64,000 nt of DNA from Balneolaceae bacterium (lineage in GTDB: Bacteria; Bacteroidota; Rhodothermia; Balneolales; Balneolaceae): contig CP051242.1 of assembly GCA_017795005.1 (NCBI GenBank), positions 1,178,001 through 1,242,000 of the forward strand, read 5' to 3'. Below, in pieces: positions 8,907 to 14,593 of this stretch. The first letter of the stretch is position 1; the number at the start of each line of letters is the position of its first letter. Both the position numbers and the translations under genes were made by a program. Under the pieces are notes generated by a model, which did no database searches, was not told where the DNA came from, and saw only the letters and a program-made list of their open reading frames with translations.

Positions 8907-9323
8907 TCAATTTAATCTTTGCCACGCTTGAGAAGCTCCTAATGATATAGAAAGTGGTATTACAGATGTACTAATTAAAAAATAAAATTCTCCTGATTCT
9001 GTAATCAATGAAAAAATAGAAGAAATCAGAAAACCTATGAAACCCAAAAAACCAAAGCACCAAGTAAGGATATTTACAAAATTAATAAGTTTAGGTCTCA
9101 ATAAGTTATTTTTCCTCCAAAATAAAACAGGCCATTTGCCAGTGAAGAAGAATCCAAAAGAAATTAGAACTGGTAGTAATAAATTAAAAATAGAGTCAGG
9201 AAATTCAATGGTAACCAAAGAAACTATTGCATTTATTATCAAACCTAAAACTATTATAGGTTTTACCCACCGATCTGTCAACCGATAAACCAAGGGCTTT
9301 TCTATCTCTTCAAATTTTTCCAA
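8907..9323 (-). CDS. Small hypothetical integral membrane protein
   Basis: Not recognised. The 138 residues carry a short charged N-terminus (KFEEIEKPLVYRLTDRW), then about four hydrophobic segments, near residues 20-40 (PIIVLGLIINAIVSLV), 45-63, 85-107 (WCFGFLGFIGFLISSIF) and 113-130. No signal peptide, lipobox or conserved charged motif in the membrane segments is evident. It lies between the repeat B region and a pair of small paralogous genes on the same strand. AT-rich codon use resembles the neighbours. The start at 9323 precedes the charged helix and is the only reasonable one. Confidence 0.6.
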   Translation of the reverse strand: MEKFEEIEKPLVYRLTDRWVKPIIVLGLIINAIVSLVTIEFPDSIFNLLLPVLISFGFFFTGKWPVLFWRKNNLLRPKLINFVNILTWCFGFLGFIGFLISSIFSLITESGEFYFLISTSVIPLSISLGASQAWQRLN

Positions 9324-9333
9324 AATTCACCTC

Positions 9334-9361
9334 AACGAATAACGAATAACGAATAACGAAT
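9334..9361. repeat. Heptanucleotide tandem repeat (AACGAAT)x4
   Basis: Four perfect, contiguous copies of AACGAAT lie in the gap between two minus-strand genes. The 7-base period is not codon-compatible and lies outside coding sequence. A second heptamer array with a different unit lies at 57101-57128. Confidence 0.9.
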
Positions 9362-9368
9362 AACCAAC

Positions 9369-9749
9369 TCACTCCATATCTTTAAGTCGGCGTTCCGTTA
9401 AAGCCAGATTTAGTTTGCTCGAAAAAGTCAGCGCTTCGTTTCGGTCAGAACGTTTGATGTCGAGAGCAATTCTACCCTGTGAGCTTCCGGGTAAAGGATC
9501 CAGAAATACCATTTTTGTGCTTTGAATGATAAGCTTGGTTTTAAAGAGTCCTTTTTTCACGTGAATATCTTTTAGATACTGAACATCAAAAGAGAATTTA
9601 TTGAGTGTACTTATGGCCGTTCCCATGGCATCATATAATTTAAACTCGAACATAATTTCCTCGCCCTCAATACTAAGTACACCTCGTACTTCTTTCATCA
9701 TAAATTCTTCTTCAGGGCTGTATAATGAGTAGTGGTAGGCGAGGCTCAT
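9369..9749 (-). CDS. Hypothetical protein, paralogue of the adjacent upstream gene
   Basis: Not recognised (126 residues). It shares an evident pattern with its upstream neighbour (9746-10132): G-x-LSIE near residue 24, FEF, KKGLF-x-(S/T)KLIIxS near 66-78, a PG turn, and a C-terminal SSK/NLALxExRL. This looks like a small beta-rich domain closed by one amphipathic helix, as in PH/GRAM-like folds (inference from the strand pattern only). There is no signal peptide or membrane segment, so it is probably cytoplasmic. Its start ATG overlaps the stop of the upstream gene by 4 bases (ATGA), indicating translational coupling. Function unknown. Confidence 0.65.
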   Translation of the reverse strand: MSLAYHYSLYSPEEEFMMKEVRGVLSIEGEEIMFEFKLYDAMGTAISTLNKFSFDVQYLKDIHVKKGLFKTKLIIQSTKMVFLDPLPGSSQGRIALDIKRSDRNEALTFSSKLNLALTERRLKDME

Positions 9750-10132
9750 TCACCATCTCCTTTCAGTTCATTTAATCGTTGTTCGGAAAGGGCCAGATTG
9801 ATATTAGATGAGATGGAAGCGGCTGTATCACGGTGTTTCTTTTTTACCTTAAGAATACGCTCGGTAAGCTGGTTTCCGGGAAAGTCTTTAAAGGTAGATG
9901 CTTTTTTAGAATGAATGATGAGTTTGCTTGCAAATAAACCTTTCTTGTATTCCGTCATCGATATTTCGGAAATATCAATTTCTAATTCCATCAGTCCCGA
10001 TTTGATAGCCTCAAAAAAAACGTCGGTTTTTTGGAATTCGAAATAGAGTTTACCCTTTTCTATGCTCAGAATTCCTTCCAATTTCATAAAGCCGCCGTTT
10101 AAATCGTCCATATAAAAGGGTAAGCTTCGCAT
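9746..10132 (-). CDS. Hypothetical protein, paralogue of the adjacent downstream gene
   Basis: Not recognised (128 residues). It has the same block order as the 126-residue downstream protein: G-x-LSIE (about 19-24), FEF, YKKGLFASKLIIHSK (about 61-75), DFPGN, and a closing SSNINLALSEQRLNEL helix. Two such products made from overlapping genes suggest a heterodimer or a duplicated module. It is the first gene of this two-gene minus-strand unit, and its start at 10132 is divergent from the leader RNA candidate beginning near 10201. No membrane or export signals are seen. Confidence 0.65.
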   Translation of the reverse strand: MRSLPFYMDDLNGGFMKLEGILSIEKGKLYFEFQKTDVFFEAIKSGLMELEIDISEISMTEYKKGLFASKLIIHSKKASTFKDFPGNQLTERILKVKKKHRDTAASISSNINLALSEQRLNELKGDGE

Positions 10133-10200
10133 GCTAAGTCCTGTTTCTTAGTGAGTTATGTTGATTATAAAAATTCACAAAAAAAGTACAAAAAATCTGT

Positions 10201-10325
10201 AAGGACTTCCTCTCTAATCGATCTGACTAGATAAGCATAGAGACGACAATCATTGCCTTGAGAGTGAAAGCTCTCAATGTCCTTCCAGGGGTAAGAGGTG
10301 GATAACCTTTTACCCTATTTTTTTG
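10201..10325 (+). ncRNA. Candidate structured leader or small RNA ending in an intrinsic terminator
   Basis: Complementary segments build a compact fold: P1 AAGGAC (10201-10206) with GTCCTT (10279-10284). Inside it, P2 is TCTCT (10211-10215) with AGAGA (10239-10243), topped by ATCT/AGAT (10221-10232). P3 is TTGAGAG (10258-10264) with CTCTCAA (10271-10277) and loop TGAAAG. Immediately after P1 comes an 11-pair stem (10289-10299 with 10305-10315) followed by TAT7, a textbook terminator. It lies about 70 bases before the lamin-tail gene at 10394. It does not match the riboswitch consensus sequences I know. It could be a cis-regulatory attenuator or a free small RNA. Confidence 0.5.
10289..10324 (+). 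terminator. Intrinsic terminator upstream of the lamin-tail gene
   Basis: Stem GGGTAAGAGGT (10289-10299), loop GGATA, and pairing arm ACCTTTTACCC (10305-10315, one G-U pair), then TA and seven T. It points along the plus strand and precedes the next start codon by about 70 bases, so it must end an RNA that begins between 10133 and 10289. Confidence 0.75.
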
Positions 10326-10393
10326 CGATTAACGGATCATTAAGACTTTGTACGCAAGTTGCTAATCTCATAGCAGTAAACTATTCTAATAAC

Positions 10394-13300
10394 ATGAAGT
10401 TTTACTGTTCCATATTTCTATTACTGTTCTCTTCATCTCTATATGCTCAGAATTTTGAAGATGATTTTTCTGATGGAGATTTCACTAACAATCCTGCCTG
10501 GAGTGGAGCTGATAGTAACTTTGTGATTTTTGACTTGGACGGGAATAATGTACTCAGATTAAACGCAGATCAGGCAGGGAGTTCATATCTGTCTACTTCA
10601 TCTACTGGAATAGAAGGCGAGTGGGAGTTTTTTATCCGGCTGGATTTTTCACCCTCGAATAATAATTTCACCAGAATTTTTCTGATGAGCGATATAGCCG
10701 ATTTATCCGGTTTGGTAAACGGATATGCATTACGGTGGGGAGAAAATTTATCCGGAGACGTATTTCGGTTATTCAAAATAACCAATGGTATAGAAGACGG
10801 AGAGGTATTAACGGGTACTACTAATGTAAGTACCTCAGGTGAATATAGATTAAAAGTAACCCGGGATGCTTCTGGAAACTGGTCATTAGAAGTTGCAGAA
10901 GGATATCTGGGAACCTTAGCAGAAGAAGCAACTGGTACAGATAATACATATAGCAGTTCGTCTTTTTTTGGGGTACAGGCTACATATACCGCCAGTAATA
11001 CCAGTAATTTCTACTTCGACTTTAAAATTGATCCTCCGCCCGTAGTGATCGATCCACTGGTGGTAGATTCATTCACAAGATTTAGTCAAACTGAAATTGA
11101 CTTGAGCTTTTCCAGAGATATCGATTTTGCATCTGTCTCAACTACTGATTTTTTACTAAATGAGTCAGTGAATCCACAATCATTTTCTACTCAGGGAACC
11201 AATGCTTTGAGAATCACTTTTTCCGATGTTTTTCCGGGAGGAGAAAATGAACTGTTCGTATCAGGAATTGAGTCGAGCACCAACGATACTTCTCTGACTG
11301 ATACCACCTTTACTTTCTTCACTTTTGATGCGTTTGAAACCGGAGATGTTATTATAAATGAATTTCTAAAAGATCCACCTACGGGTTCCGGATTATCTGA
11401 GTATATAGAATTGAGAAATACCACTTCTAAGTACATCAATCTTAAAGACTGGGAAATCGGAGATAATAATTCTTTGATCGCTATTTCAAATGAAGATCAA
11501 GTGATTCTTCCCGATAGCTTTTTGGTAGTTACACCGAATCCTTCTGCCCTTACTACCACATTTGGTGAAGGAGTATATATAGATGTATCTCTACCGGCAT
11601 TAAATAATACAACCGATCAAGTCCGAATGTATGATGAAAATGGAGTATTGGTAGATTCTTTAGAGTATACTCCGGAATGGGGAGGTGTGGATGTAGCTAT
11701 TGAAAGAATCACTCCTGATCTGGCGTCTACCCTTCAGGCAAACTGGGGCGATTCTCCGAATGCCGTTGGTACTCCAGGCAGAACTAACCAAATCGAATCG
11801 GATACAACAGCTCCTGATCTTGAAAGTTATGAGTTTTTGAATGACTCAACTCTTTTGCTCGTCTTTTCAGAAGAGATTAAACAGGAACCTGCCGAAAACC
11901 CTGACAATTACGAGATTCAGATTTTAGTAAAGGTGAATCCAGATGCAGAATCAGGAGAGAACGAGTACGTAAGATCCACTTTTTTTGCACCCGATACAGT
12001 TCTGTTGGAATTTGACCGACCCTATTATTCCTACAAATTTGGAAATATACTTGAAATCCGGAATCAGGAAGATATATTCGGAAACGTAGCCGAACTGATA
12101 TCCTTCAATTATGAATTAGTAAGAACATCGGAAGCTGTTCCTGGTGATATTATGATAAATGAGTTCATGTACGACCCTGCATCAGGATATTCTGAATTCA
12201 TAGAAATTAATAGTCATACCGGGAAAACGATAAACTTAAAAGGCTGGACAATAAGCGATAATACCGGAAATCATCAGGTTATTTCAGATCAGAACTTTTA
12301 CGTTCAAAGATATCCTGATCAAGTCTCACCAGTTGTTCTAAAACAATATGTAGTTCTGGTTCCGGATTCAACCATAGCCCTTTCAAATAGTATTCGATTG
12401 GTATTGGGAAGCCGCTTTCCAACTCTCAATAACACCACAGACGCCATTGTTCTTAAAAATGCGGATGGTGTTACCATTGATTCATTAACTTACTCAAATT
12501 CGTGGGGTGGGAGTGAAGTTTCTCTGGAACGTAGAACTGTTGATGTTCAGGGAACCATACAAGCCAACTGGGGAGACAGCCCTTCATCCAATTTTGCTAC
12601 TCCGGGGCAGACCAATGAAATTGAACCAGATACGGAAGCTCCATTTGTTGAAAGTATTCTTATTACAGATCCTGAAACAGTGTTATTGAAATTTAGTGAA
12701 GAGCTTATAGATACATTTGCAGTAGATCCTGACAACTACATTATCAGCCCTACCCAAATAGCCTCAGAAATTGAAGTGAGTTCAGATTCGGTTAAAATCA
12801 CATTATCGCAAGCACTCTCAGATGGAGAACAGCTTTCCATAGAGGTACTTAATCAGCGGGATATTTTTGGTAATGTAAATGAATCGGAGCTGGTTGAAGC
12901 CTTTTATTTTGAGATTACTCCGGCAATCAGAAATGAGGTAGTTATCAACGAAATCCTGTACCGAAGAAAGGACGAACTATCACCTGAGTTTGTCGAATTG
13001 TTTAACCCTACGAGTAAAAACTTCGATTTGTCTGGTTGGGAATTGATCGATGCAGGAAATAATACCGGGGATATCCCGGACGGTACATTTCTTCCTTCAG
13101 GGCAATATTTGATACTCACAGATCGGGAGGATTTTGCAAATACTGCTGGAAATGCCATTTATCTCCCGGATTTCCCTTCTTTAAATGATAGCGATGATGG
13201 AGTAATTATTAAAAATGCAGATGGATTTACCATCGATAGTTTATTCTATCAATCTGCTTGGGGAGGAAACAGCCCGGGTATTTCATTGGAACGGAAAGAT

Positions 13301-14593
13301 CCAGGTCGTGCATCAAATGATGCTTCTAACTGGGCCACAAGTACTGCACAGGGAGGTTTTAGTGCTGGAAGTGAAAGTTCTGTATTCGAGGAAGATGAAA
13401 CTGCTCCTGAAATTATTTTTGCTTCGGAAAGTGAGTTTTCCGTCTTCATAGCATTTTCAGAATTCATCAACATAACTCCAGAGACTCGATTTTTAATTCG
13501 GTCTGTTCCGGCTACGGTACTAGAATTCAATACTGAGAATGCAAATCAGTTGATACTCAATCTCCCGGAAGACGCTATTTCATCAGGAGATGAAGTTATG
13601 ATTGAGTTCGATGTAAGTATCGAAAACCTCGAAGATGTAAAAGGAAATGTAAACTCAGAAAGTAGCTTGTTAATCGCGAGGAGGTTAACACAGAATGCGA
13701 TCGTTATTAATGAAATAATGTACGACCCACTAGCAGATTCAGAAGATAATCTTCCAGATCAAACGGAATACATTGAATTATATAACCGGTCAAACTCTGC
13801 AGTTTCTCTGGAAGGAATTTTTCTTCATGATGAACCCGATGAGGAAAATGAAATTCGCAGTATAACCCCTGTTTCCACTCAATATAAATGGATTCAGCCC
13901 GGAGGTTATTTTCTGATGTATTCTGAAGACGAGGCATCGAATTTTGCTGAAAGTAAAACAGCCAGGTATTTCAGTATGGAAGAAGAATCTGACCAATTTA
14001 CAATGCTGGTAGACAGATCCAGTTTGAGCCTCGCTTCATCCGACGATGCTATTTATCTGGCGGATAGTATGGGGACAACCATTGATTCAGTATTTTTTGA
14101 TGAAAGCTGGCAAAACCCGAATATATTTGATACAGATGGAATTGCTTTGGAACGAATTGATCCCAATGGTCCAGGTAATTCAGCCAGTAACTGGAGTTCG
14201 AGTACACATCCAAGCGGAGGGACGCCAAATGACGAGAACACTATTTTTCAGGAACCGGGTGCAGCACCTGAATCGGTTGGAATTAGTTTTAGTCCCAATC
14301 CATTTTCTCCCGATGATGATGGATTTGAAGACAACCTCTTTATTAATTATACACTGGATGCTCCGGATTACCTGTTAAGAGTTCGCATTTTTGATCGGTA
14401 CGGACGTCAGGTTCGGGAATTGGCAAACAATCAACAAGCAGGATTTGAAGGCTCTTTAATCTGGGACGGACTTACTGATGATCGAAGAAAAAACAGGGTG
14501 GGAATCTACATCGTACTTTTCGAAGCGTATAACAGTGCGAATGGCAGTGATCGCACCTTCAAAGAGACGGTTGTATTGGCAAGGATGTTTTGA
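10394..14593 (+). CDS. Giant surface protein with four lamin tail domains and Big_5-like linkers
   Basis: The start was chosen at 10394 because the signal peptide MKFYCSIFLLLFSSSLYAQ begins there; an in-frame GTG at 10298 lies inside the terminator stem. The protein has 1,399 residues. Order: N-terminal laminin-G-like beta-sandwich (about 20-220), SbsA/Big_5-type Ig modules (about 225-315, 475-580, 745-845, 1000-1100) alternating with lamin tail domains starting near 317 (VIINEFLKDP), 584 (IMINEFMYDP), 847 (VVINEILYRR) and 1100 (IVINEIMYDP). It ends in a FlgD-like module (about 1295-1399: SPNPFSPDDDG, RIFDRYGR, WDGLTDD, GIYIV) of the kind that carries secretion or anchoring signals in this phylum. 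Probably an extracellular structural or adhesive protein. Likely co-transcribed with the lipoprotein gene 25 bases downstream. Confidence 0.88.
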   Translation: MKFYCSIFLLLFSSSLYAQNFEDDFSDGDFTNNPAWSGADSNFVIFDLDGNNVLRLNADQAGSSYLSTSSTGIEGEWEFFIRLDFSPSNNNFTRIFLMSDIADLSGLVNGYALRWGENLSGDVFRLFKITNGIEDGEVLTGTTNVSTSGEYRLKVTRDASGNWSLEVAEGYLGTLAEEATGTDNTYSSSSFFGVQATYTASNTSNFYFDFKIDPPPVVIDPLVVDSFTRFSQTEIDLSFSRDIDFASVSTTDFLLNESVNPQSFSTQGTNALRITFSDVFPGGENELFVSGIESSTNDTSLTDTTFTFFTFDAFETGDVIINEFLKDPPTGSGLSEYIELRNTTSKYINLKDWEIGDNNSLIAISNEDQVILPDSFLVVTPNPSALTTTFGEGVYIDVSLPALNNTTDQVRMYDENGVLVDSLEYTPEWGGVDVAIERITPDLASTLQANWGDSPNAVGTPGRTNQIESDTTAPDLESYEFLNDSTLLLVFSEEIKQEPAENPDNYEIQILVKVNPDAESGENEYVRSTFFAPDTVLLEFDRPYYSYKFGNILEIRNQEDIFGNVAELISFNYELVRTSEAVPGDIMINEFMYDPASGYSEFIEINSHTGKTINLKGWTISDNTGNHQVISDQNFYVQRYPDQVSPVVLKQYVVLVPDSTIALSNSIRLVLGSRFPTLNNTTDAIVLKNADGVTIDSLTYSNSWGGSEVSLERRTVDVQGTIQANWGDSPSSNFATPGQTNEIEPDTEAPFVESILITDPETVLLKFSEELIDTFAVDPDNYIISPTQIASEIEVSSDSVKITLSQALSDGEQLSIEVLNQRDIFGNVNESELVEAFYFEITPAIRNEVVINEILYRRKDELSPEFVELFNPTSKNFDLSGWELIDAGNNTGDIPDGTFLPSGQYLILTDREDFANTAGNAIYLPDFPSLNDSDDGVIIKNADGFTIDSLFYQSAWGGNSPGISLERKDPGRASNDASNWATSTAQGGFSAGSESSVFEEDETAPEIIFASESEFSVFIAFSEFINITPETRFLIRSVPATVLEFNTENANQLILNLPEDAISSGDEVMIEFDVSIENLEDVKGNVNSESSLLIARRLTQNAIVINEIMYDPLADSEDNLPDQTEYIELYNRSNSAVSLEGIFLHDEPDEENEIRSITPVSTQYKWIQPGGYFLMYSEDEASNFAESKTARYFSMEEESDQFTMLVDRSSLSLASSDDAIYLADSMGTTIDSVFFDESWQNPNIFDTDGIALERIDPNGPGNSASNWSSSTHPSGGTPNDENTIFQEPGAAPESVGISFSPNPFSPDDDGFEDNLFINYTLDAPDYLLRVRIFDRYGRQVRELANNQQAGFEGSLIWDGLTDDRRKNRVGIYIVLFEAYNSANGSDRTFKETVVLARMF

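Follow-up and report, generated by a model that had tools for sequence, protein, structure and literature searches.

What is the structured element that stands, with its terminator, just ahead of a giant surface-protein gene in this Balneolaceae genome: a leader that governs that gene, or an RNA in its own right? At positions 10201-10325 of the window, by which we mean the whole analysed stretch of 64,000 nucleotides, a sequence-only reading had drawn three nested helices (P1, P2 and P3) closed by AAGGAC/GTCCTT and followed at once by a terminator. It had left the choice between an attenuator or riboswitch and an independent small RNA. We conclude that the element is probably an ECF-type promoter followed by an independent sRNA of about 93 nt, belonging to a regulon for DNA uptake and recombination.

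The hairpins and their conservation

The sequence features from which the element had been drawn are present. AAGGAC and GTCCTT were found within 10201-10325, and a UCUCUA/UAGAGA repeat was also seen there. Directly after the structure stands, as had been claimed, a terminator of about 11–12 pairs (10288-10316) with a run of seven T at 10318-10324, and the start codon said to lie some 70 bases further on is the large gene's ATG at 10394, 69 nt past the element. For the region 10180-10340 the predicted folding energy is -48.7 kcal/mol, compared with -31.3 ± 3.9 for shuffled sequences (z -4.44). The predicted transcript alone, 10233-10325, reaches z -4.42 against its shuffles; it folds into P3 and the terminator, with a 5' tail before P3 and UGUCCUUCCAG left open between the two.

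Compensatory changes among relatives had been proposed as the check on the helices, and they were found for part of the structure. In an alignment of 50 homologs (A4), hairpin P3 (UUGAGAGU-GAAA-GCUCUCAA, 10258-10277, plus strand) showed two-sided changes at 7/7 modelled pairs, and the intrinsic terminator (GGGGUAAGAGGU-GGAUA-ACCUUUUACCCU with its T7, 10288-10324, plus strand) at 10/10. P1 showed a two-sided change at only one of its eight pairs, even though A4 had been fitted to a structure with P1, P3 and the terminator, a bias in favor of P1; P1 pairs are broken in homologs where the 5' side alone has changed. P2 is not retained in the aligned sister species L003 and L004. The claim of a structured RNA with a terminator therefore stands for its inverted repeats and terminator but not for three nested helices, since covariation is confined to P3 and the terminator. 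A promoter-like motif, described below, contains the 5' arms of P1 and P2, which are probably not transcribed. In reverse complement, GUCCUU of the RNA nearly matches that motif's −35 block, a likeness for which we can offer no explanation beyond chance; the case shows that a −35 block and a downstream complement can mimic a riboswitch helix.

By DNA search, 14 genomes of this family carry related copies, the named relatives being Balneolaceae. A covariance model detected the RNA locus in about 67 of the 92 genomes of the family, usually as one strong copy per genome; the locus was missing from some near-complete relatives, and, across the phylum, the model found no convincing member outside Balneolaceae. 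The RNA had been called undescribed, and Rfam 15 bears this out: at gathering and permissive thresholds (to E 10) it returned only unrelated chance matches for the window stretch, and it gave no match in 16 homologous loci. A search of a phage collection gave no relevant match. A new, Balneolaceae-specific small RNA, behind a putative promoter shared with DNA-uptake genes, is supported by these sequence comparisons. A short ORF within the RNA (ATG-TCC-TTC-CAG-GGG-TAA) was considered and rejected; its ATG is absent in L005, L012 and L013.

The shared motif, its genes and its candidate sigma factor

Two blocks on the plus strand precede the predicted transcript, the −35-like TGTAAGG (10198-10204), which overlaps the 5' arm of P1, and the −10-like TCTGAC (10222-10227), so labelled from motif counts and a spacing test. 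TGTAAGG and TCTnAC keep a constant 17-base distance in nearly all homologs (alignments A2 and A4); the spacer (10205-10221), which contains the 5' arm of P2, is variable in sequence and fixed in length. Upstream lies an A-tract/GTAC/A-tract (10179-10195, plus strand), kept in most homologs, that may act like an UP element.

Exact copies of TGTAAGG-N17-TCTnAC number 21 in the window genome. When the spacer was left free at 9–25 bases, 21 of 23 matches had 17 (reversed control, 2). The motif occurs in 75 of the 92 family genomes, in up to 31 copies (controls, 0–3), and outside Balneolaceae at 0–3 copies, the control level. Its number tracks the presence of the RNA, with a median of 13 in 65 genomes with the RNA and of 0 in 27 without, a comparison that ignores phylogeny. 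A scan for sigma-70-type promoters gave a single match, on the minus strand and no better than chance. Several regulon genes have their start codon 4–5 nt past the motif, which fits leaderless genes; transcription would then begin at about +6, with no space for a transcribed leader. Two blocks at a fixed spacing, repeated ahead of a whole set of genes, make up the pattern of an ECF-sigma-dependent promoter. From the spacing, the gene set and the leaderless starts together, we infer that TGTAAGG is an ECF-type −35 and TCTGAC its −10, with the RNA starting near 10233; 10198-10227 is best read as an ECF-type promoter. With this start, and an end set by the terminator, the predicted small RNA would span 10233-10324 on the plus strand, some 92–93 nt. 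In another genus, a regulon motif with no ORF behind it (L150 150-320; G064:C2:1146882) is followed about 61 nt downstream by a strong terminator, a candidate for a second motif-driven small RNA.

Pfam families found downstream of the motif were RadC, Competence/ComEC, ComM (Mg_chelatase), SSB, 23S_rRNA_IVP, Y1_Tnp, GIY-YIG, DUF559 and PDDEXK_3. The 23S_rRNA_IVP members are four-helix small ORFs, one of them followed by a gene reading as recA (G000), and the Y1 transposases are of the RAYT type. In a second genus (G059), Pfam placed RecA, ComEC, ComM, RadC, SSB and an integrase behind the motif; in a third (G064) it placed RecA, RecN-like and HU-like proteins there, and ComM, RadC and SSB were assigned by sequence reading. 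A RecQ-like second gene is also in the set. With comEC, comM, radC, ssb and recA all behind one motif, which suggests their common control, the set has the composition of a competence regulon; judged by these assignments, such genes are what a DNA-uptake and recombination programme usually comprises.

Solitary RAYT, GIY-YIG and DUF559 genes carry the same motif at G000 sites L095, L097, L099, L101, L103, L106, L107, L108 and L117, some of these assignments being by sequence reading only, and at such sites the motif often ends 4–5 nt before the start codon. A CBASS cyclase gene (PADLOC E 3.5e-141) also lies behind a regulon motif (L111/L087; G000:C1:3512693).

The regulon might instead be a DNA-damage (SOS-like) or mobile-element response, with the RNA as its sRNA. 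The set does hold recA, recN, ssb, radC and the RecQ-like second gene, as well as integrase, RAYT and GIY-YIG genes. However, ComEC and ComM work in taking up DNA and integrating the incoming strands, and competence induces ssb, radC and recA in other bacteria, so that we consider a damage or mobile-element response unlikely. The place of radC and recA in competence is discussed in PMC4630621.

A divergent ECF sigma factor is the likely reader of the motif. This 181-aa protein (G000:C1:279418-279960; L094:955-1497) has a copy of the motif directly behind its stop codon, ahead of a gene for a TPR protein, and the arrangement recurs in other genera; the motif stands directly behind the sigma gene in G000, G028 and G058-G064 among others. 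Sigma regions 2 and 4 were both recognized in the protein: Sigma70_r2 matched 9 of 12 orthologs (best 7e-6), with a weak region 4. Its structure model is two-domain and all-helical, at modest confidence (pLDDT 73, pTM 0.49), and ECF sigma factors made up nearly all of the top Foldseek matches to the model in the PDB (best E 0.004). The TPR protein may be the anti-sigma partner of this sigma. A second ECF sigma gene, of canonical type, lies near another motif site, and its product may also be the reader. Just behind the sigma gene, in most of the genomes compared (L154-L173), a CAGAATGTATTT...AATACATTCTG type of hairpin separates the motif from the presumed anti-sigma/TPR gene.

The giant gene and other readings of the element

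The gene behind the RNA (10394-14593, plus strand) encodes a 1399-aa surface protein with four lamin-tail (LTD) domains and a CHU_C type IX secretion domain. On the other side, divergent from the RNA, are three small adjacent minus-strand genes of no Pfam family (8907-10132), among them a conserved gene for 128 aa at 9746-10132. Most homologous loci keep one or two of the three beside the RNA, and asd mostly lies beyond them.

Were the element an attenuator or riboswitch acting in cis, its leader structure and terminator would set read-through into the giant gene, and the order of RNA, terminator and giant gene is indeed conserved in most genomes. The giant ATG lies 5–31 nt past the terminator in some genomes; in L047 and L057, where it follows the RNA at 5 and 16 nt, there is no space for a separate promoter, and read-through could occur across so short a gap. 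Most close relatives, however, have TTG-N20-TATTCT between terminator and giant ATG, which we take to be a Bacteroidota-type promoter; in the window (10359-10387, plus strand) its TTG is at 10359-10361 and, after 20 nt, its TATTCT at 10382-10387, 6 nt before the ATG, so placed as to be the gene's own promoter. The RNA is also kept where no giant gene lies behind it (L051, L052, L086 and L090), and in L086 the next gene points the opposite way. The would-be aptamer half is the very motif found at about 20 unrelated genes, and with P1 and P2 unsupported no aptamer-like fold emerged. Association with the giant gene is not constant, and shared transcription with it is unlikely, a few short-gap genomes aside. 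We therefore regard an attenuator as improbable. Of the two options first left standing, the independent RNA is favored, and cis-regulation falls away in most genomes, given the gene's own putative promoter and the RNAs without a giant gene. The earlier link to the surface-protein gene likewise fails for most genomes, the RNA persisting without it; the giant gene is probably a neighbor, outside the system.

One could also take TGTAAGG-N17-TCTnAC for a transcribed leader element, with P1 as a real helix. TGTAAGGA and TCCTTCCA could pair, and both hardly vary, but start codons 4–5 nt past the motif allow no leader, the 17-nt spacing is constant across unrelated sequence, and P1, besides its want of covariation, has its partner TCCTT near no more than 5 of the 53 other motif sites, making a leader element very improbable. 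A 6S-like or other housekeeping RNA of divergent sequence is scarcely credible: the RNA usually has one strong copy per genome, and the family's 6S RNA is unaccounted for (nothing above cut-off in 19 relatives), yet RF00013 and RF01685 had no match at the locus, the RNA without its promoter part forms no long rod with a central bubble, and it is lost from some near-complete relatives and has a putative regulon promoter.

The exposed linker and comparison with known systems

The preferred reading remains that of an ECF-type promoter with its own sRNA in a DNA-uptake and recombination regulon. It builds on what was computed, namely conservation, the covariation of P3 and terminator, the motif, its spacing and the motif-bearing genes. 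From these we infer a functional promoter at 10198-10227 that would drive expression of a non-coding RNA ending at the terminator. The same promoter would control comEC, comM, radC, ssb, recA, recN and others; the divergent ECF sigma would most likely read it, and the presumed anti-sigma/TPR gene would carry it too. With competence as the presumed trigger, the RNA would be produced while the uptake programme is active, and it would most likely act in trans by base pairing, for which it would use the nearly invariant UGUCCUUCCAG that lies exposed between the hairpins.

This linker (10278-10288, plus strand), which overlaps the 3' arm of the earlier-proposed P1, is conserved and predicted to be open in most homologs, and is the candidate base-pairing seed. 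Within it, GUCCUUCC is nearly invariant among the aligned homologs, and CCUUCC is mostly unpaired in folds of homologous transcripts, L041 being an exception. Short, ended by a terminator and, in predicted folds, presenting a conserved unpaired seed, the RNA is built like a base-pairing sRNA. Elsewhere in this genus (G000:C1:2445890; G001:C3:421792), AAUGUCCUUCCAGG recurs at a second locus, flanked by a different pair of hairpins; this locus lacks the TGTAAGG promoter and precedes another small gene. The sharing of AAUGUCCUUCCAGG between different hairpins favors the linker as the working part of the RNA. At this locus (G000:C1:2445850-2445945, L189 ~1460-1545; G001:C3:421792, L188), AATGTCCTTCCAGG lies between hairpin and terminator. 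In 16 stretches around other exact ATGTCCTTCCnGG sites, no further unit of hairpin, seed and terminator was recognized.

A target search found no conserved target among the start regions examined, and GGAAGGACAT was rarer than its reversed control. Complementarity between the RNA and the start region of the sigma gene (AAGGACAUG) is seen in two genera, this one included, and in a third if a G-U pair is allowed; other genera lack it, and the region ranks only 8th of 104 start regions.

We would tentatively go further, at slightly below even confidence: Balneolaceae competence may be under a dedicated ECF sigma, the regulon's own sRNA may time or shut off the programme, and lone mobile genes (those for RAYT, GIY-YIG and DUF559 nucleases) as well as a CBASS defence operon may have joined by gaining the promoter. 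To our knowledge, no dedicated competence ECF sigma has been described in Balneolaceae, and an open-literature search for natural transformation in this group found nothing. The motif, the candidate sigma, about 20 candidate genes and the conserved small RNA offer a handle on the subject, and the make-up of the motif set suggests the use of a DNA-uptake promoter by mobile and defence genes.

Among competence-linked RNAs there is a likeness, one of features rather than of sequence homology, to the RocR sRNA of Legionella pneumophila, which acts with RocC; in two reports (PMC7973641, PMC9674577), RocR is likewise a small RNA tied to natural competence and ended by an intrinsic terminator. As described there, RocR targets the mRNAs of DNA uptake through a FinO-domain chaperone, whereas the RNA here shares the promoter of the uptake genes. 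The csRNAs of Streptococcus pneumoniae (PMC4507080) are CiaR-controlled, competence-linked small RNAs that act on an mRNA. Competence linkage is what the RNA here would have in common with them, and action on an mRNA is a csRNA feature; the csRNAs depend on CiaRH, in that account, whereas the RNA here has a predicted sigma-type promoter common to uptake genes.

RybB and MicA, sigma-E-dependent sRNAs of Escherichia coli (PMC12249550), are also short RNAs that end in a terminator and depend on an ECF sigma factor. They differ in sequence and serve in envelope stress, whereas the RNA here would serve in DNA uptake.

In ComX/sigma-X systems, an alternative sigma and a short motif turn on genes for DNA uptake and recombination. 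The late-competence regulon of streptococci is of this kind (PMC6560143, PMC7665891), and the Balneolaceae would resemble it in using an alternative sigma with a short motif for uptake and recombination genes. Unlike ComX/sigma-X, the Balneolaceae system would pair an ECF-type sigma with its motif in a Gram-negative group, and its set includes RAYT, GIY-YIG and DUF559 genes and a CBASS cyclase.
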